IMG/VR virus record: IMGVR_UViG_3300042923_000055 | Coordinates: 1-24,555 of that record | Source: a virus | DNA: 24,555 nucleotides | Reading direction: 5' to 3' (one strand) | Shown: positions 5,952 to 21,733 of the stretch, in pieces | Position numbering within the stretch: the stretch's first letter is position 1 | How the letters are laid out: the number at the start of each line of letters is the position of its first letter | Made by a program: the position numbers and the translations under genes | Notes under the pieces: model-generated | What the model was told of the DNA's origin: nothing | The model's database searches: none | What the model saw: the letters and a program-made list of their open reading frames with translations, nothing else

Positions 5952-6353
5952 ATGAGTTTTGAAGGTAATTATATTTATGTTAGCAATACTGCATTTCCAA
6001 ACAGCCTCCTCGCATTCGAGGGCTATTCAAATACTCCATGTATTAGGATAGATAAAAACAGCTACAGGGATGGAAAAGGCAAATTACACAGGACTATTCT
6101 TCCTGAGAAGCCAAGCACAATCTCTATTAAGACGATTGACGGCTTCTCTTACGGTCAAAAGTTAATCATGAAAGCATTTTTTATTCCCCGTGACTTAATT
6201 ACTATAAAATACTGGAACGACGAAACAGACGATTATGAAATAGCTCAATTCTACGTACCGGAAATAAAATATACTCACAAATATCAGAAGAATGGCGTCC
6301 CTTATTATAATGCCTTGGAAATAGAATTTATTGCATATGGAGGGGATCAGTAA
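5952..6353 (+). CDS. Distal-tail-like (Dit) protein
   Basis: A 133-residue protein between the tape measure and the tail hub, the place of the distal tail protein that connects the tube to the baseplate. ATG 5952 is six bases after AAGGAGG; the open frame goes back to TTG 5946, but that lies directly on the ribosome site. It is shorter than classical Dit proteins (about 200 or more residues) and would correspond only to the core ring domain. The C-terminal NALEIEFIAYGG strand is consistent with a beta-rich fold. Its stop overlaps the next ATG (TAATG). Confidence 0.6.
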   Translation: MSFEGNYIYVSNTAFPNSLLAFEGYSNTPCIRIDKNSYRDGKGKLHRTILPEKPSTISIKTIDGFSYGQKLIMKAFFIPRDLITIKYWNDETDDYEIAQFYVPEIKYTHKYQKNGVPYYNALEIEFIAYGGDQ

Positions 6354-8641
6354 TGGTAAATGTAAGCGATGCCTTAAAAACCATATTCAAGAACGATATG
6401 TTCCCTCTAAGCCCAACAATCGCAGACAAGGACATAGAAGCAGTATTCCAATCCATCTCATTGACAGTTGGAACGGATCAGTTTGCGGTTGACAAAGGAG
6501 ATTTAGAGATAAGTGAAAGCATATGTACTGATGGAGATTTAAAGTTTGGTAAGTGTAATTCATCATCGGTTAAATTCACGGTTGCAGATGTTTCGGACGA
6601 TATCAAAGGTAGAGAATTTTCACTTAATCAAACAGTAAATTCTGGTGGCGCATCTTATCCCGTGCCTCTCGGAATATTCAAAGTTGACTCAGCGAACAAG
6701 CAAGGCGATTTGAGATTTAAGGATATTGTTGCTTATGACCGGATGAGAAAAGTTGATATCGATGTAACTCCATGGTACAATTCACTCTTCCCAATCGGAA
6801 CTGAGACATACACCCTAGCACAGTTTAGAGCCTCATTCCTGGCTCATACAGGGATCACAGAGGACACAAGTAAATTACCATTACCCAACGACTCAATGAC
6901 CGTCACAAAGACGATTGAGCCAGCTTCTCTCTCTGGGCGAATGGTAGTCGAAGCCATAGAAGAAATCAACGGAGTATTCGGACACATTAATCGGTCCGGA
7001 CAATTCACCCACATAATCCTTAAGCCAGCATACGGCGATTATCCAACCAACGATTATCCAACCAATGACTATCCGATCTCTGAAGATGACACTTCATTTG
7101 TAACCGCTGGATATGTAGATGAAACCATCACGGAATCCATGCGTCAGGGCGTACATTTCGAAGAATACACGGTAAAAGAGATTGATAAACTAATCATCCG
7201 CACAGATGACGAAGACATAGGGTCTATCGTTGGGACCGGTACGAATGCATATATCATTCAAGGAAATTTCTTGGTATTCGGAAAGGGCGCGGCTGAACTT
7301 GCTACCATTGCAAGGAACGCCTTTGGATACATGGCTAAGCGTCCGTACAGACCATACGAAAGCGAAAGTATAGGATTGCCTTACTTGGAGCCCGGGGACA
7401 TGATAAAACACGACCAGATGGAGCCTGTCATCGGGTATATATTCAGCCGTACTCTAAAAGGAATTCAGTCCTTGCGAGACGAATACAGTGCATCAGGGAG
7501 CCAAGAACTTCCTCAGAATACAAGTCGGAATGTAGAAATAGAAGTTCTTAAACGCAAGGCTACCACGATCAAGAAAGATGTAGACGGTGTAAGAGTAGAG
7601 GTATCAGATTTAGCAGCCGAGACTTCTACACAGTTTGAGCAGACCGCCAATTCAATTGGGTTAAAAGTAGCGAAAGCGGATATAATTCAATCAATCAACC
7701 TGTCCACGGAAGGACTAAAAATCGATGTAACCAAGCTTGACATAACCGGGCTTGTAACAATTACATCGTTAAATACTCCCGGGAGTGTAGTTATAGACGG
7801 CGGCAATCTCAAAGCCGGGACAGTTGTAGCAGATACGGTTAGGGCTGGATGGGTCTATGCTAATGATATAAGCGCAAATCAAATCAGCGCAGGCGGAACA
7901 ATAAGTGGCGTTACATTCACTACAACGGGGGCCTATGGTACGGTAACTCTAACCGATGGCAATATGGTTGCAGATTCTGCGTCTATAGACAATCTCGTTA
8001 TACCTACGCAGTTAGTTATAGGGTCAATACAGATGTTTGCCTATGATGGTAGTGCAAGCTTTCAAAAAATTACATGCTACAATGTTAACGGGGGAACCCC
8101 TGTGACATCTGTAAACATCAGTAGCCAGGCTGTGGGCTACGCAAATAGCTCGGGCAGTGTTTCTTCTATTAGCGGACACTACACGAGTGAAATCACTGCA
8201 TCTGACACCGGTTACGGAAATATTGATTTGCAAGGGTTTGACAATGCGGCAGGTGTTAATTATGTTCAAGCGAATTACCAGCCAATAAGCCCTTCAGACA
8301 TAAGGTTAAAGCATAATATTTTACCGCTGGATAACATCTTAGATGAACTGTTTTATTCGCTTAAGCCATACCAATTCAAATATAAAACAGATACCTATGG
8401 TGACGGAGTGTTTTTTGGATTGATAGCACAACAGTTAGAAAACGCATTTCTTTCTTACGGTCTTAACCCCTATGATTACGATTTAATAGAAGTAAAGGAC
8501 GTTAAGAAGTATACGGATGACGGATATTACGTGAACGATAAAACCCACAGAATACATTATAACAATTTCATCGCATGGTTGATTAAAATGGTTCAAAAGC
8601 AAAACGAACGCATTGTGCACCTCGAGAATATTATAAAATAA
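6353..8641 (+). CDS. Tail hub/spike with C-terminal S74 intramolecular chaperone
   Basis: A 762-residue protein. The N-terminal ~370 residues resemble the tail-associated hub (Tal/gp18-like) with many beta strands (for example LEPGDMIKHDQMEPVIGYIFSRTLKG split across a loop). A short coiled segment follows near 400-440, then a beta-repeat shaft rich in Gly, Ser and Thr (~460-640). The last 117 residues form a Peptidase_S74 intramolecular chaperone: SPSDIRLKHN at 646-655 with Ser648-Asp649 as the expected self-cleavage bond and Lys653 nearby, and a terminal helix QKQNERIVHLENIIK. After trimerization the chaperone is normally cut off. A DYPTN-repeat occurs near residue 230. Confidence 0.82.
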   Translation: MVNVSDALKTIFKNDMFPLSPTIADKDIEAVFQSISLTVGTDQFAVDKGDLEISESICTDGDLKFGKCNSSSVKFTVADVSDDIKGREFSLNQTVNSGGASYPVPLGIFKVDSANKQGDLRFKDIVAYDRMRKVDIDVTPWYNSLFPIGTETYTLAQFRASFLAHTGITEDTSKLPLPNDSMTVTKTIEPASLSGRMVVEAIEEINGVFGHINRSGQFTHIILKPAYGDYPTNDYPTNDYPISEDDTSFVTAGYVDETITESMRQGVHFEEYTVKEIDKLIIRTDDEDIGSIVGTGTNAYIIQGNFLVFGKGAAELATIARNAFGYMAKRPYRPYESESIGLPYLEPGDMIKHDQMEPVIGYIFSRTLKGIQSLRDEYSASGSQELPQNTSRNVEIEVLKRKATTIKKDVDGVRVEVSDLAAETSTQFEQTANSIGLKVAKADIIQSINLSTEGLKIDVTKLDITGLVTITSLNTPGSVVIDGGNLKAGTVVADTVRAGWVYANDISANQISAGGTISGVTFTTTGAYGTVTLTDGNMVADSASIDNLVIPTQLVIGSIQMFAYDGSASFQKITCYNVNGGTPVTSVNISSQAVGYANSSGSVSSISGHYTSEITASDTGYGNIDLQGFDNAAGVNYVQANYQPISPSDIRLKHNILPLDNILDELFYSLKPYQFKYKTDTYGDGVFFGLIAQQLENAFLSYGLNPYDYDLIEVKDVKKYTDDGYYVNDKTHRIHYNNFIAWLIKMVQKQNERIVHLENIIK
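7036..7074 (+). repeat. 15-bp in-gene tandem repeat
   Basis: CGATTATCCAACCAA occurs exactly twice (7036-7050 and 7051-7065), followed by a degenerate third unit. It encodes the NDYPT repeats within the hub domain of the tail spike. The unit length is a multiple of three, so unit gain or loss keeps the frame. Confidence 0.9.
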
Positions 8642-8660
8642 TTAATAAAATGTAAAAATG

Positions 8661-8689
8661 TTGAAATAATAACATTATTATGGTATTGT
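8661..8689 (+). promoter_or_regulatory. Promoter of the secreted Ig-like protein
   Basis: TTGAAA (8661-8666), a 17-base spacer and TATTGT (8684-8689) make a good sigma-A-type promoter in the gap after the tail spike gene. The spacer contains a perfect inverted repeat ATAATAA-CA-TTATTAT at 8666-8681, which could be a regulator-binding site. Confidence 0.6.
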
Positions 8690-8709
8690 TTGCATAGGAG
8701 GTGCATATA

Positions 8710-9672
8710 ATGAAAAAATTATTAGCGGTTATTTTAGCAATAGCATTATCGATGACCACAAATACCGCATATGCGGGATATGTGATGGATAGTAACGGAA
8801 AGTATGTATTAAGCGAAGATAGTTACACACAAGACGGAAAAATTAAAACAACATCGTTACATGAAATATATGGCAACACAGACACGGTATATAATTCTGA
8901 AATAGACAAAGTCGACCAAGCAATTAGTAAGCTTCCTAAATTGACCTTTAGCGGAGCCGATGATAAAACGGTAACTGGAACAGTGACCTATACAAATCAA
9001 AACGAGATAAAACTTGGAGATTTTGACCTGCAATGGACATTTACTCCAGACGATCCGAAATATGAGGCTCATACCGGTGCATTCCAGTTTTACATCTGGC
9101 CCACTGAAACAGAAGAGCAAAAAGGCAAATTGCCAGATCCGGAACCAGAGCAACCCACAACCCCATCCCTCACAGCAACCACGGTTCGACTAACAACACT
9201 TACCGCATACGATATCAATCTTGACAATAAAGTATCAGGTTCCTTGTATAGCTGGACAAGTTCTGATACAAGCGTAGTTGATGTAAGCAAAGGTGGACTT
9301 CTGAAAGCCAAGAAAGAGGGAGCCGCAACAATCACGTGCGACATAGTTTATCCTGACGGCGGTCAATCCTCACTATCTAGTCTGGTAGCCGTAGGATTTG
9401 ACGAGAACGCCCCGTTATTGACTGAAACGAGCTTAGATTTAGAGACAGGCGATGTATTTGATATCAATCTTGAAAATAAGGTTGCTAAGTCAAAATACAG
9501 ATGGGTATCGTCAGATAAATCCATTGTCAAGGTTAGTTCTCCATCAGGCAAGGTAACAGCCATGAGCGAGGGTGAGGCATATGTAACATGCACGATCACC
9601 ACACCGGAAAAGCAAGTCATTGTTTTAAGATGTGACATCAGTGTAACGGCACCAAAAACAGTAACCGAATAA
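8710..9672 (+). CDS. Secreted two-domain bacterial Ig-like protein (candidate moron)
   Basis: A 320-residue protein from ATG 8710, eight bases after AGGAGG (the open frame extends back to 8701 without support). Residues 1-22 are a clear Sec signal peptide: KK, a hydrophobic core LLAVILAIALSM, and an AYA cleavage site before Gly23. Residues ~35-130 are an unassigned beta-rich region. A Pro-rich linker (DPEPEQPTTP) follows, then two Big_2-like Ig repeats, each with a YxWxSSDxSxVxVS motif (SWTSSDTSVVDVS and RWVSSDKSIVKVS) and an EGxAxxTC strand. No LPxTG anchor or C-terminal membrane segment is present, so the product is probably released. It has its own promoter and terminator within the tail module. 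Host-cell or surface interaction is inferred, not shown. Confidence 0.85.
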   Translation: MKKLLAVILAIALSMTTNTAYAGYVMDSNGKYVLSEDSYTQDGKIKTTSLHEIYGNTDTVYNSEIDKVDQAISKLPKLTFSGADDKTVTGTVTYTNQNEIKLGDFDLQWTFTPDDPKYEAHTGAFQFYIWPTETEEQKGKLPDPEPEQPTTPSLTATTVRLTTLTAYDINLDNKVSGSLYSWTSSDTSVVDVSKGGLLKAKKEGAATITCDIVYPDGGQSSLSSLVAVGFDENAPLLTETSLDLETGDVFDINLENKVAKSKYRWVSSDKSIVKVSSPSGKVTAMSEGEAYVTCTITTPEKQVIVLRCDISVTAPKTVTE

Positions 9673-9685
9673 CTTAATAATCAAA

Positions 9686-9715
9686 GGGCAGAGCCGAAAG
9701 GTATCTGCTCTTTTT
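9686..9715 (+). terminator. Intrinsic terminator after the Ig-like gene
   Basis: GGGCAGA (9686-9692) pairs with TCTGCTC (9704-9710), extended inward by GCC/GGT around a GAAA loop and followed by five Ts (9711-9715). It lies 14 bases after the Ig-like gene and closes that transcript. Confidence 0.8.
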
Positions 9716-9736
9716 ATGTGCAGAAATGGAGGATAT

Positions 9737-9907
9737 ATGGACTACTACGGATATACGGAGGAACAATTCAACCGAATGGTAGAGCTTTTCAATAAGATTA
9801 GCATAACCGGGATAAATCAAATTGAGGATTACCACGAAGCAACCGGGATTCTAAGACATCCAGTTAAACTCAATGTTAAACAGGAGGAGAAAAAAGATGC
9901 CAATTAA
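9737..9907 (+). CDS. Small tail-module protein, unknown
   Basis: A 56-residue protein starting MDYYGYTEEQFNRMVELF at ATG 9737, just after a GGAGG ribosome site at 9728-9732. The open frame extends upstream to 9716, but that part overlaps the terminator T-tract and has no ribosome site. It is mostly helical, charged, with no membrane segment. It overlaps the next gene's start by 11 bases, so the two are translationally linked. I do not recognise a family; position suggests a tail or baseplate accessory protein. Confidence 0.6.
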   Translation: MDYYGYTEEQFNRMVELFNKISITGINQIEDYHEATGILRHPVKLNVKQEEKKDAN

Positions 9908-10289
9908 TTACGAACCAATCAATTATCAAAATGCTCCGTCCACCGCAACCCCAAGAAATGCATATAATCTGAATAAAACTGATCAGGCAGCAAAGCAAGC
10001 GTGCGATGGGGTTGATGCTATAAATGCTGATTTAGCATCTAAAATACTTCCCATATACGGCAATACGCTGGCAGTTGGTACAGATTTTAATACCTTGAAA
10101 TCCGCAGCTATTTATGACTATCAAGGAAACTTATCTTACATAAATGCTCCCGCAAGCGGAGAATATGGCATACTTGAAGTTGTTAAGTTAAATATATTTA
10201 TACTTCAAAGAGCCACAAATGTAGTAGCAAATACCATCAAGCACCGCACTTCGTATGATAATGGGGTGTCATGGACGACATGGGCATAA
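9897..10289 (+). CDS. Tail fibre/receptor-binding protein with pyocin-knob-like end
   Basis: A 130-residue protein from ATG 9897, with AGGAGGAG at 9882-9889. The C-terminal half has the pattern GEYGILEV...ILQRATN...KHRTSYDNGVSWTTW, which resembles the knob domain found at the end of many phage tail fibres and pyocins (Tyr/Gln-Arg strand, then YDNG-x-W-x-x-W). The N-terminal ~50 residues are polar and would serve as an attachment helix. The protein stops right after the WTTW motif, at the usual end of such knobs. Function as an adhesin is inferred from this pattern and location. Confidence 0.6.
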   Translation: MPINYEPINYQNAPSTATPRNAYNLNKTDQAAKQACDGVDAINADLASKILPIYGNTLAVGTDFNTLKSAAIYDYQGNLSYINAPASGEYGILEVVKLNIFILQRATNVVANTIKHRTSYDNGVSWTTWA

Positions 10290-10354
10290 ACTATAAGTTA
10301 ACTCATTAAATCAAAACCATAACGGTCTATTTTTTATACATAGAAAGGAGTTTT

Positions 10355-10714
10355 ATGGAAAAAATCAGATTGTCTAACGGTCAAGAATTTGATCTTAGAC
10401 CACTCGGGATCAACTCGAACGATATACGTAAAACAAGATTATTCAAATTTACTTCAGAGCTACCCATCGGGGAAATTCAAGCAATGTTCCGCAATAGCGA
10501 AAATATATCATCCATAGACCACTTATTATCCACCGGAACGCTTAGAGGTAATTTTAGCGATTGCGTGGCTTATAAATCACTCTCACATGATGACAGCAAT
10601 GTTTACACGGTGGAATTATCAACGGATTCTATCGAGCGTGAGGTAATGGAACTTAGAATGAAAGTTGCGAAGCTCGAAGAGGCTCAGGCAATCGCAGAAG
10701 AACCGGAAGCCTAA
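10355..10714 (+). CDS. Small baseplate-region protein, unknown
   Basis: A 119-residue protein with an AAAGGAG ribosome site four bases before ATG 10355. The first ~85 residues look like a compact beta domain (KIRLSNGQEFDLRPLGI) and the last 30 are a helix with heptad character (EVMELRMKVAKLEEAQAIAEE). It lies between two host-recognition genes and ends 15 bases before the BppU-like fibre gene. Proteins like this, with a short C-terminal coiled coil, are common in Clostridia phage tail modules, but I know no defined function. Confidence 0.6.
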   Translation: MEKIRLSNGQEFDLRPLGINSNDIRKTRLFKFTSELPIGEIQAMFRNSENISSIDHLLSTGTLRGNFSDCVAYKSLSHDDSNVYTVELSTDSIEREVMELRMKVAKLEEAQAIAEEPEA

Positions 10715-13067: not shown

Positions 13068-13331
13068 ATGGAGATATTAAGTCAATTTGTAATAGTAGCA
13101 GTTATGGGTATCTGTCTGGCATTAGGGTATATCATTAAGAATAGTTTAACATTTATCCCAAATAAGTATATACCGCTTATCATGGCGGTTGTAGGCGTCG
13201 GATTGAACGTCTGGATGAACAGCGGGGCATTTACACCGGAAATATTATTGGGTGGCTTAGCGAGCGGATTAGCAAGCACAGGAGCCTTTGAATTAATAAG
13301 GAATATCGGGAAGAAGGATGATGTTAAATGA
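13068..13331 (+). CDS. Phage holin (Phage_holin_2 / A118-like)
   Basis: An 87-residue protein with an N-terminal membrane helix (VIVAVMGICLALGYII), a conserved FIPNKYIPLIMAVVGVGLN second helix, a GGLASGLASTGAFELIRN third hydrophobic segment, and a charged tail GKKDDVK. This pattern matches A118-type holins, which form the pores that release the endolysin. Its TGA overlaps the amidase ATG (ATGA at 13328-13331), so holin and lysin are translated together. Confidence 0.85.
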   Translation: MEILSQFVIVAVMGICLALGYIIKNSLTFIPNKYIPLIMAVVGVGLNVWMNSGAFTPEILLGGLASGLASTGAFELIRNIGKKDDVK

Positions 13332-14011
13332 AAGCAACACCAAGATTTATGACAAAGAACCGATGCTATACCAACGCGATCAAGCTGAAGCCCACAAAGT
13401 TAGTTCTTCACTCCCTTGGCGTGGCTCAACCAAACGCGAATGTCCTAATTAATTCATGGAACAACCAAACAGAAGATAAGTGTGTACATGCATTTATTAT
13501 GGAACATGAGATCATCCAGACTCTTCCGTGGAATTATAAGGCGTGGCATGTAGGCAAGGGTCCTAAGGGATCATGGAACAGCTGCGCAATCGGCGTGGAG
13601 ATTTGCGAACCATCCGGGCATAAGTACAACGGCGGTACAATGGTTAATTATGATGTCAAAAAGAATGCTACATACTTTGAAGCAGTTTATAACAATGCCG
13701 TGGAGCTATTCGCCTATCTGTGCAAAGAGTACAGTCTGGAACCATTGAAAGATATCTATTGCCATTGCGAAGTCAATAAACTCGGTTACGCTTCCAATCA
13801 TGCCGATGTAATGCAATGGTTCCCGAAACATGGCAAGAGCATGGATACATTCCGTTCAGATGTCAAAGAAAAGTTAGCTGAGATGCAAAAGCCGAAAAAG
13901 AATACGGTTTACCGGGTACAGGTTGGCGCATTCGGGATCAAAGATAATGCAGAGAGGCTTGTCAAGGAACTTAAAGCAAAAGGGTATGAGCCTATCATCG
14001 TTGAGGCATAA
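13328..14011 (+). CDS. Endolysin: N-acetylmuramoyl-L-alanine amidase with C-terminal SPOR half-domain
   Basis: A 227-residue amidase_2/PGRP-type endolysin that cuts the bond between muramic acid and the peptide. Expected zinc ligands are His28 (LVLHSLG), His146 (YCHCEVN) and Asp160 (NHADVMQWF). The AWHVGKG turn (72-78) and IGVEICE (88-94, with Glu91) are also typical. Residues ~193-227 resemble one repeat of a SPOR domain (YRVQVGAFG...AERLVKELKAKGYEPIIV), which binds denuded glycan, but only about half the usual ~70-residue length is present. It has no signal peptide and depends on the holin. It is the last gene of the late operon, and terminators follow. Confidence 0.92.
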   Translation: MKATPRFMTKNRCYTNAIKLKPTKLVLHSLGVAQPNANVLINSWNNQTEDKCVHAFIMEHEIIQTLPWNYKAWHVGKGPKGSWNSCAIGVEICEPSGHKYNGGTMVNYDVKKNATYFEAVYNNAVELFAYLCKEYSLEPLKDIYCHCEVNKLGYASNHADVMQWFPKHGKSMDTFRSDVKEKLAEMQKPKKNTVYRVQVGAFGIKDNAERLVKELKAKGYEPIIVEA

Positions 14012-19262: not shown

Positions 19263-20693
19263 TTGAATATATCAAAGATCAAAATTAGAACCCTATTCGG
19301 GTTAAAGGCTTTCGAAACAGACGGAAAGTCAATAGAATTATCCGGCAAAAACGGAGTAGGAAAGACATCTGTATTAGACGCAATAAAGTATGCACTTACC
19401 AATAAGTCAGATAGAGAGTACATAGTACACGATAACGAGCCAGAGGGCGAGATCCTTATTGAGACAGATAATGGGCTAGTTATTGACAGAAAGAAGCGTA
19501 CACAGCAAGCAGATTATAAGAGCGTCAAGCAGAACGGCAGAGAGGTAGGAAGCCCGGAGGCATTTCTTAAAGATATTTTTACAACACTGCAGCTTTCCCC
19601 GGTTGAGTTTATGCAGATGGATAAGAAGCACCAAAACGCCATTATTCTGGACATGATTGAATACGATTGGTCGCTTCAGACAATCAAAGAGTGGTTTGGC
19701 GAAATCGTGCCAGAAGTCAATTATGATCAAAACATTCTCCAGGTGCTTAATGATATTCAAGCCGAGAATGGATATTATTTCATGCGTAGACAGGATATTA
19801 ACAGAGACATCCGAAATAAGAAAGCTTTTGTTGAAGAGATTGCCGTAAATATCCCGGCTGGATACGAGGCTGAGAAGTGGGAAAAAGAAAGCCTTAATGA
19901 GATTTACACCGACATTGAGAAAATCCGCAAGGATAACGAGACTATTGACAAGGCTCTGCAACTTATCGAAAACCGGAATAATAAGGTTCGCAAGTTCGAA
20001 GCTGACAAGGAAATAGCCTTAGCTGCTCTTGACCGTGAATTTGACACTAGAGCCAATCAGATAGATCGTGACATTGCTAATCTTAAGGCGCAGATTAAAG
20101 CCCTTGAAACAGAGCATGACGGTCTTACAGAGAAGAAACAGGACAAGGTATCTGTTATTGAAAATCAGTATAAAGCTGCCGTCTCGAAATATGACGCAGA
20201 GGTTGAGGAATACCGAGAGTATACCGGCAGAGAAAAGAAATCTATTGTTGAACTTTCCGAAAAGGCGACAATGGTCGAGAAGATGAAATCACATATTAAT
20301 GAGTTCCGAAGAATGACTGTATTACAGACCGAAGTTGAAGAGCTGCAATCACAATCTACAGAGCTTACAAGAAAGATTGAGAAAGCAAGAACTCTTCCCG
20401 GTGAAATTCTAGAAACTGCAGTGATCCCGATTGACGGATTAACCGTAAAGGATGGCATTCCTTTGATTAATGGTCTTCCGGTATCCAATCTTTCCGACGG
20501 TGAGAAACTTGACCTTTGTATTGATGTTGCAATTCAGAAGCCGAACGGCTTACAGATCATCCTTATTGATGGTGTAGAGAAATTGTCTACAGACCTTAGA
20601 ACGAAGCTTTACCAGAAGTGCAAGGATAAAGGGCTTCAATTTATTGCAACTCGTACAACCGATGATGAAGATTTAACAGTCGTAGAACTGTAG
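19263..20693 (+). CDS. SbcC/RecF-like AAA ATPase
   Basis: A 476-residue ATPase from TTG 19263, eight bases after AGGAGG. Walker A is GKNGVGKTS at 28-36, the coiled coil runs from ~215 to ~390 with many Lys/Glu heptads, the ABC signature is LSDGE at 410-414, and the Walker B strand is LQIILIDGVEKL at 430-441 with Asp436. A canonical Asp-Glu pair is not present: Gly437 follows, and Glu439 is the nearest acid. No CxxC zinc hook is in the coil, and it is shorter than cellular SbcC (about 1000 residues). It lies in front of the RecT-like and nuclease genes and probably works on DNA ends in recombination or replication. Confidence 0.82.
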   Translation: MNISKIKIRTLFGLKAFETDGKSIELSGKNGVGKTSVLDAIKYALTNKSDREYIVHDNEPEGEILIETDNGLVIDRKKRTQQADYKSVKQNGREVGSPEAFLKDIFTTLQLSPVEFMQMDKKHQNAIILDMIEYDWSLQTIKEWFGEIVPEVNYDQNILQVLNDIQAENGYYFMRRQDINRDIRNKKAFVEEIAVNIPAGYEAEKWEKESLNEIYTDIEKIRKDNETIDKALQLIENRNNKVRKFEADKEIALAALDREFDTRANQIDRDIANLKAQIKALETEHDGLTEKKQDKVSVIENQYKAAVSKYDAEVEEYREYTGREKKSIVELSEKATMVEKMKSHINEFRRMTVLQTEVEELQSQSTELTRKIEKARTLPGEILETAVIPIDGLTVKDGIPLINGLPVSNLSDGEKLDLCIDVAIQKPNGLQIILIDGVEKLSTDLRTKLYQKCKDKGLQFIATRTTDDEDLTVVEL

Positions 20694-21100: not shown

Positions 21101-21733
21101 ATGAACGAATTAATAAAGCAAGAAGCATCTTACGAATTAAGCACAGGTGTTTTTTCAACCATAGAGAATTTCAAAGAAATATATGATATCGGTAAAATGT
21201 TTGCTACTTCCACTTTAGTTCCGCAGGCATATCAAGGTAAGCCTATGGATTGCACAATAGCCGTAGATATGGCCAACAGGATGGGAATCTCCCCGATGAT
21301 GGTAATGCAGAACCTTTGGATTGTTAGAGGAAAACCTTCTTGGAGTGGACAAGCTTGCACAGCATTAATCGAGGGTAGCGGTAAGTTTAAAAACCTCAGA
21401 CACGTATATACAGGCGAAAAAGGCACAGATACATGGGGTTGTTACGTAGAGGCCGTTAGAATTGAGAATGGCGAGGTTGTACGGGGTGTTGAGGTTACTA
21501 TTGCAATGGCTAAAGCCGAGGATTGGGTTAATAAACCAGGTTCGAAATGGAAGACTATGCCGGAATTAATGCTTGCTTATAGAGCATCGGCGTTCTTCGC
21601 TAGGGTACATATTCCCAATGCTTTAATGGGTGTTTCCGTAGAAGGCGAGGCACAGGACATTCAGAAGTCAGTAAAGCAAGAACCGCCTATGATCTCCTTT
21701 GAAAGCGAGGTAGTTGAAAATGATATTAACTAG
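21101..21733 (+). CDS. RecT-like single-strand annealing protein
   Basis: A 210-residue protein with the layout of the RecT/Redbeta group: IAVDMANRMGISPMMVMQNL near 50-70, SGQACTALIEGSGKF near 82-97, YRASAFFARVHIPNALMGVS near 158-177 and VEGEAQDI after it. RecT-family proteins anneal single strands with 5'-resected ends made by a partner nuclease. It overlaps the start of a PD-(D/E)XK nuclease gene by 14 bases, which is the usual partnership. It is shorter than typical RecT (about 270 residues), and similarity is judged by eye, so a related annealase family is also possible. Confidence 0.68.
   Translation: MNELIKQEASYELSTGVFSTIENFKEIYDIGKMFATSTLVPQAYQGKPMDCTIAVDMANRMGISPMMVMQNLWIVRGKPSWSGQACTALIEGSGKFKNLRHVYTGEKGTDTWGCYVEAVRIENGEVVRGVEVTIAMAKAEDWVNKPGSKWKTMPELMLAYRASAFFARVHIPNALMGVSVEGEAQDIQKSVKQEPPMISFESEVVENDIN

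Follow-up and report, generated by a model that had tools for sequence, protein, structure and literature searches.

The window analyzed (24,555 nucleotides of viral DNA, the whole stretch covering positions 1 to 24,555 of IMG/VR record IMGVR_UViG_3300042923_000055) carries at 8642-9715 a cassette made up of a predicted promoter, a gene for an exported Ig-like protein and a predicted terminator, set between a tailspike gene ending in a Peptidase_S74 (S74) domain and fibre genes. The location of the gene between tail spike and fibre genes, reported in the initial annotation, is confirmed, the spike lying upstream and the 9737 gene and fibre-type genes downstream. On its minus strand the window encodes a tyrosine integrase and a regulator of Cro/CI type, and it also encodes a Rha-type regulator; the phage is thus temperate. 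The features of the region are as follows.

6353..8641, plus strand: tailspike/tail-tip gene (phrog_18190, E 5e-131), directly upstream of the cassette
aa 648-699 of the spike: C-terminal Peptidase_S74 auto-chaperone (Pfam PF13884, E 1.5e-10)
8661..8689, plus strand: predicted sigma-A-type promoter, TTGAAA-N17-TATTGT, with a counterpart at the same distance in each of the 13 cassettes
8696..8701, plus strand: ribosome-binding site AGGAGG (AGGAGG or GGAGG kept in 13/13 cassettes)
8710..9672, plus strand: cassette gene (ATG at 8710, stop at 9672), exported Ig-like protein of 320 aa, with 12 homologues in the same slot
8710..8775, plus strand: predicted signal peptide, aa 1-22, MKKLLAVILAIALSMTTNTAYA, with a putative type I AxA cleavage site and no lipobox Cys
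8776..9159, plus strand: variable N-terminal head, aa 23-150 (mean pairwise identity 0.24)
9172..9396, plus strand: first Big_2 Ig-like repeat, aa about 155-229 (Pfam PF02368)
9418..9651, plus strand: second Big_2 repeat, aa about 237-314, the most conserved part (Pfam PF02368, alignment)
9683..9715, plus strand: predicted intrinsic terminator, bulged hairpin GGGCAGA-GCC-GAAA-GGT-A-TCTGCTC followed by a T-run (folding, conservation)
9737..9907, plus strand: small downstream gene, the homologue of which abuts the spike gene in the cassette-less phage L018
13068-13331, holin, and 13328-14011, amidase: both past the fibre-type genes that follow the 9737 gene

The -35 (TTGAAA, 8661-8666) and -10 (TATTGT, 8684-8689) hexamers are separated by a 17-base spacer ending in TGG (extended -10), and the predicted transcript leader is only ~14 nt long. 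By consensus scan the promoter is unremarkable (9/12 matches; 19 sites in the window vs. 13.7 in shuffles), and a call based on the scan alone was dropped as not above chance, a comparative test being used instead. A sigma-A matrix was scored on the 75 bases preceding the start codon, with ~155 gene starts from the same loci as controls. Scores range from 8.1 to 12.2 in the 13 cassettes, vs. 3.8 +/- 1.8 in the controls (Mann-Whitney p = 1.5e-9). The -10 element ends 19-23 bases 5' of the start codon in 13/13 cassettes, the distance of 11 listed for L020 resulting only from the use of an earlier start. The 9683-9715 hairpin is not listed by a simple terminator scan of the window; folding of 9680-9718 gives -16.9 kcal/mol (z = -5.0). 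All 12 complete cassettes feature a G+C-rich hairpin plus T-run after the stop codon (-13.6 to -18.4 kcal/mol), an energy range reached by 10% of ~155 control gene ends (p = 9e-8). Decisive support for the predicted promoter and terminator is their conservation among homologous cassettes. The positions given in the initial annotation for the promoter (8661-8689), the ribosome site, the signal peptide and the terminator (within 9683-9715) are correct, as judged by sequence and folding.

An inverted repeat, ATAAT-AAC-ATTAT, is found in the promoter spacer of the window (8667-8680), and is shared with L002 and with none of the other cassettes; it is possibly an operator, or occurs by chance. In L013 (8365-8417) and L015 (8338-8393) the promoter reaches back into the 3' end of the spike gene, leaving almost zero intergenic space. 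In the window the strong terminator lies inside the late operon, and no obvious promoter precedes the fibre, holin and lysin genes. When the terminator stem was used as a marker of other cargo in this slot, the stem and a preceding family gene were found together, among the matches listed, in known members only.

Both IMG/VR and the Herbinix hemicellulosilytica genome yielded homologues of the cassette protein. No matches were obtained with the single spike protein sequence, whereas a profile of the spike alignment yielded 29 loci. The cassette gene resides in 13 distinct phages, the window included, always directly after the spike, and 12 of the cassettes are complete. A comparison with sister phages had been proposed earlier, on the ground that a gene kept by all relatives would be a fixed tail gene. 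Nine relatives having the same tail gene (L018, L022, L023, L030, L034, L035, L036, L037 and L040) cleanly lack the cassette, the spike abutting the next genes; the fixed tail gene is ruled out by these absences, and the cassette is consequently accessory. The cleanest case is L018, in which a homologue of the 9737 gene (39% identical) is found 16 bases past the spike stop codon. On a tree of spike N-termini, the pattern of presence and absence takes six changes at best, with at least four gains or losses on well-supported branches. An integrase or a serine recombinase is encoded by the window and by the majority of cassette carriers, and one of these or a chromosomal contig was recorded for eight carriers. 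No sequence relatives of the cassette protein were detected in 50,697 annotated phage records, and no description of this exported Ig-protein family was found in the published literature.

The GC content of the cassette gene (0.415) equals that of its surroundings (spike 0.421, window 0.405), and the same holds closely for other cassettes; a recent foreign insert of odd composition was ruled out on this basis. Further small ORFs are found past the cassette in L013 (9399-9593), L020 (9497-9679), L032 (9452-9637) and, on the minus strand, L007 (10106-10342). With such extra ORFs, one in opposite orientation, present after some of the cassettes, this may be a slot in which accessory genes gather. 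In L024 (7596-9145) the spike frame breaks at 7596 and similarity continues to 8303, as a result of a frameshift, recoding or an assembly error; no cassette homologue was found at this locus.

Traces of replacement are visible in two phages. L016 and L020 (the latter being the same prophage as L007 and L005) are 82% identical in the first part of the spike and 90% in the gene after the cassette, and differ in both S74 ends and heads. Past its own intact cassette, L020 carries (9339-9496) a ~160-base scrap of a cassette 3' end plus terminator, placed after the terminator of L020 itself; it matches the 3' end and terminator of the L016 cassette at 80% identity, and L020's own gene at 73%. By this similarity, the scrap is a fossil of cassette replacement. 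In L023 a hairpin resembling the cassette terminator persists at 8128-8175 in spite of a missing cassette gene and a non-S74 spike end, the whole spike end and the cassette having been replaced as far as the terminator, which was left behind. This scar excepted, cassette-less phages lack the terminator. An AAA/SMC-like ATPase gene (19263-20693) and a RecT-like gene, the latter just below the Pfam cut-off (21101-21733), are found in the window, and this recombination module could have promoted the exchanges observed.

The cassette is associated with the S74 end of the spike, present in 13/13 carriers and in 2/9 non-carriers only (L035 and L036, the S74 spikes of which are not followed by a cassette; hypergeometric ~2e-4, kinship ignored). 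S74 domains were sorted into four classes, defined by identity >= 0.35. Head identity is 0.41 within and 0.20 between classes (p = 5e-5). Neither the N-terminus (p = 0.44) nor the middle (p = 0.14) of the spike follows S74 class, and the Big_2 part follows it weakly (p = 0.02). Mantel tests on whole distances gave a less marked association with the S74 end (rho 0.33-0.39, p 0.04-0.06) than did the comparison by class. Among independent tree pairs, the S74 end changes along with the cassette in three to four of four, and never in the opposite way, the pairs being too few to reach significance (p 0.125). L014 is a partial exception, an unrelated S74 domain lying beside a head nearest to the window class. 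The S74 domain is normally cleaved off, and is hence not itself the receptor-binding part. As S74 domain and head reside within about 1 kb, physical linkage alone may explain the pairing, and the association with S74 drops on both sides (none in the spike middle, weak in the Big_2 part), as a linkage gradient would. Judging from these comparisons, the cassette does not move by itself, its exchange going along with that of the spike's C-terminal end. The locus had been described as a self-contained moron. By architecture and distribution, as read in the genomes, this is well supported, the cassette having its own predicted promoter and terminator and an export signal, and being accessory; the notion has to be amended for the co-exchange with the S74 spike end.

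Signal-peptide-like N-termini (positive charge, hydrophobic stretch, type I cleavage motif) are featured by 13/13 homologues, vs. 3/158 other phage ORFs. The predicted cleavage sites are AxA-like, and a Cys following the site is absent in all 13 N-termini. The earlier argument that a Sec signal would be superfluous in a tail protein is sound; alone, it does not exclude a role in the virion. Two Big_2-type repeats had been recognized, and Pfam PF02368 indeed matches two stretches (E 2.4e-11; 43.9 bits vs. a gathering score of 22.8). Among homologues the repeats share mean identities of 0.60 and 0.62, vs. 0.24 for the head. Cys294 and Cys308, nearly invariant, lie on adjacent strands of the second Big_2 repeat (9589-9633 in the window), and could form a disulfide, fitting an exported protein. 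The Big_2 part also has hits to tail- and head-protein profiles in PHROG. No LPXTG, lipobox or SLH anchor motif was seen in the protein, and no Pfam match to cell-wall-binding domains at E up to 1.

The N-terminal ~100 residues had been reported as not recognized. This holds for part of the head only, its second half (about aa 75-131) being, by profile matches, a third Ig-type module of the kind found in surface proteins. The module matches a repeat without a name in large Lachnospiraceae proteins (profile search, 16/397 genomes matched); three such proteins, upon inspection, also carry YDG, CBM_X2, or MBG plus lectin-like domains. No match of the head to carbohydrate-binding families was obtained by Pfam and profile searches, the module lying outside Pfam coverage. 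Structure prediction of the N-terminal region, already suggested in the initial annotation, returned a pLDDT of 87 for the head and 84 for the whole protein (AlphaFold). Fold searches with the whole protein hit generic Ig or cadherin chains only, at low TM; the head alone gave no Foldseek match below 0.001, with Z at most 5.6, and its matches are generic Ig-like domains, those of S-layer proteins and adhesins included. The modelled head fold is a common Ig-like arrangement, and gives no clue to a ligand.

The reading preferred here, tentatively and at somewhat short of an even chance, is that of a surface moron expressed by the lysogen, paired with the exchangeable spike end and acting, most likely, in superinfection exclusion or receptor masking. 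Region 8642-9715 would work as an autonomous transcription unit that a temperate phage carries inside its late tail operon. The promoter is probably on in the prophage, transcription in the lysogen being argued from the conserved promoter-terminator pair, and the terminator would stop prophage transcription from entering the downstream fibre, holin and lysin genes. The product, presumably built as a conserved stalk of two Big_2 repeats bearing a variable Ig-type head, would be exported by Sec, and then released or held at the host surface. There it may mask or alter a surface receptor, or block entry, for phages with a matching spike; it may also keep released progeny off debris. Lysogen expression, surface location and exclusion function are what we infer for this protein. 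A role at a step controlled by the spike is most likely, since the cassette is found beside S74-ending spikes only and is exchanged along with the spike end; for the same reasons, a link to adsorption or exclusion is likelier than a generic adhesin serving host fitness. That S74 end and variable head form a cognate offence/exclusion pair, inherited as one module and protecting the lysogen specifically against phages of the same spike class, is a narrower proposal, and a fairly unlikely one. If the head truly matches the spike, host-range and exclusion modules would be inherited together, and the resistance carried by a prophage would be predictable from spike sequence. The family in any case offers a recognizable promoter-to-terminator cassette, with natural states of presence, absence and replacement in otherwise similar phages.

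A moron of the same architecture might serve host fitness, the exported multi-Ig protein binding plant fibre, glycans or cells, and the match with S74 reflecting linkage only. Such a function, often served by prophage morons (PMC7067206), is in keeping with the resemblance of the head to repeats of Lachnospiraceae proteins bearing YDG, MBG, CBM_X2 or lectin-like domains, and with the presence of one homologue in the genome of Herbinix hemicellulosilytica T3/55, a hemicellulose degrader by its name. Yet the head itself matches no carbohydrate-binding family, the cassette always occupies one slot after S74 spikes, and head class tracks the spike end and not the rest; host fitness is accordingly placed on the unlikely side.

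Distinctly unlikely is a late lytic protein, expressed mainly together with the tail and lysis genes and exported just before the cell lyses, which would keep progeny off debris and infected cells, the internal promoter only boosting its expression. The gene points the same way as the late operon around it, and late transcripts have to pass through the cassette, because no promoter-like site is listed by the window scan in 9716-10589, between the cassette terminator and the next genes; Llp of T5, moreover, acts during lytic infection (PMC9586334). A strong terminator after the gene would, however, hamper late expression of fibre, holin and lysin, and is best understood if the cassette forms a transcription unit by itself; phages devoid of the cassette, the L023 scar aside, are devoid of the terminator as well. 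A virion protein, either an Ig-like tail decoration with a non-working signal or an exported product coating released particles via its Ig repeats, is highly improbable. In its favour, phage particles commonly bear Ig-like domains, PHROG tail and head profiles are hit by the Big_2 part, and the gene sits among tail genes; against it, all 13 homologues have a type I signal-like N-terminus rare in other phage ORFs, many relatives with the same tail gene miss it, and the cassette has its own promoter and terminator.

The surface moron preferred here resembles known phage morons (PMC7067206) in having its own predicted promoter and terminator, in its accessory presence at a fixed site, in the exported product and in the temperate nature of the phage. 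It differs in that the cassette, known here from sequence alone, swaps together with the neighbouring tailspike end, and in lacking the unusual base composition often cited, though not essential, for morons. Big_2 (PF02368) proteins are akin to the cassette protein by two repeats above the Pfam cut-off, a likeness of fold family only, silent on function. For phages of Gram-positive bacteria, only a few examples of exclusion or conversion proteins are known (PMC4737114). Llp of T5 is an exclusion lipoprotein whose gene lies just downstream of the one for receptor binding, and counters both superinfection and phage loss on fragments of lysed cells (PMC9586334). The cassette protein, too, is predicted to be exported, and its gene likewise directly follows one for receptor recognition. 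However, Llp and Cor of T1/phi80 are small lipoproteins of Gram-negative hosts, from which a three-Ig protein of 320 aa, having a type I signal and lacking a lipobox, is set apart by its features. CwpV, a surface protein of Clostridium difficile, blocks phage DNA injection (PMC4737114). As a secreted surface protein of a clostridial bacterium it is comparable with what is proposed for the cassette protein, but it is host-encoded, wall-bound and phase-variable, whereas no wall-binding domain was found in the cassette protein. The latter belongs to neither the Llp nor the CwpV family; by analogy, T5 Llp is a precedent for the mechanism proposed, and CwpV for a clostridial surface protein able to block injection.
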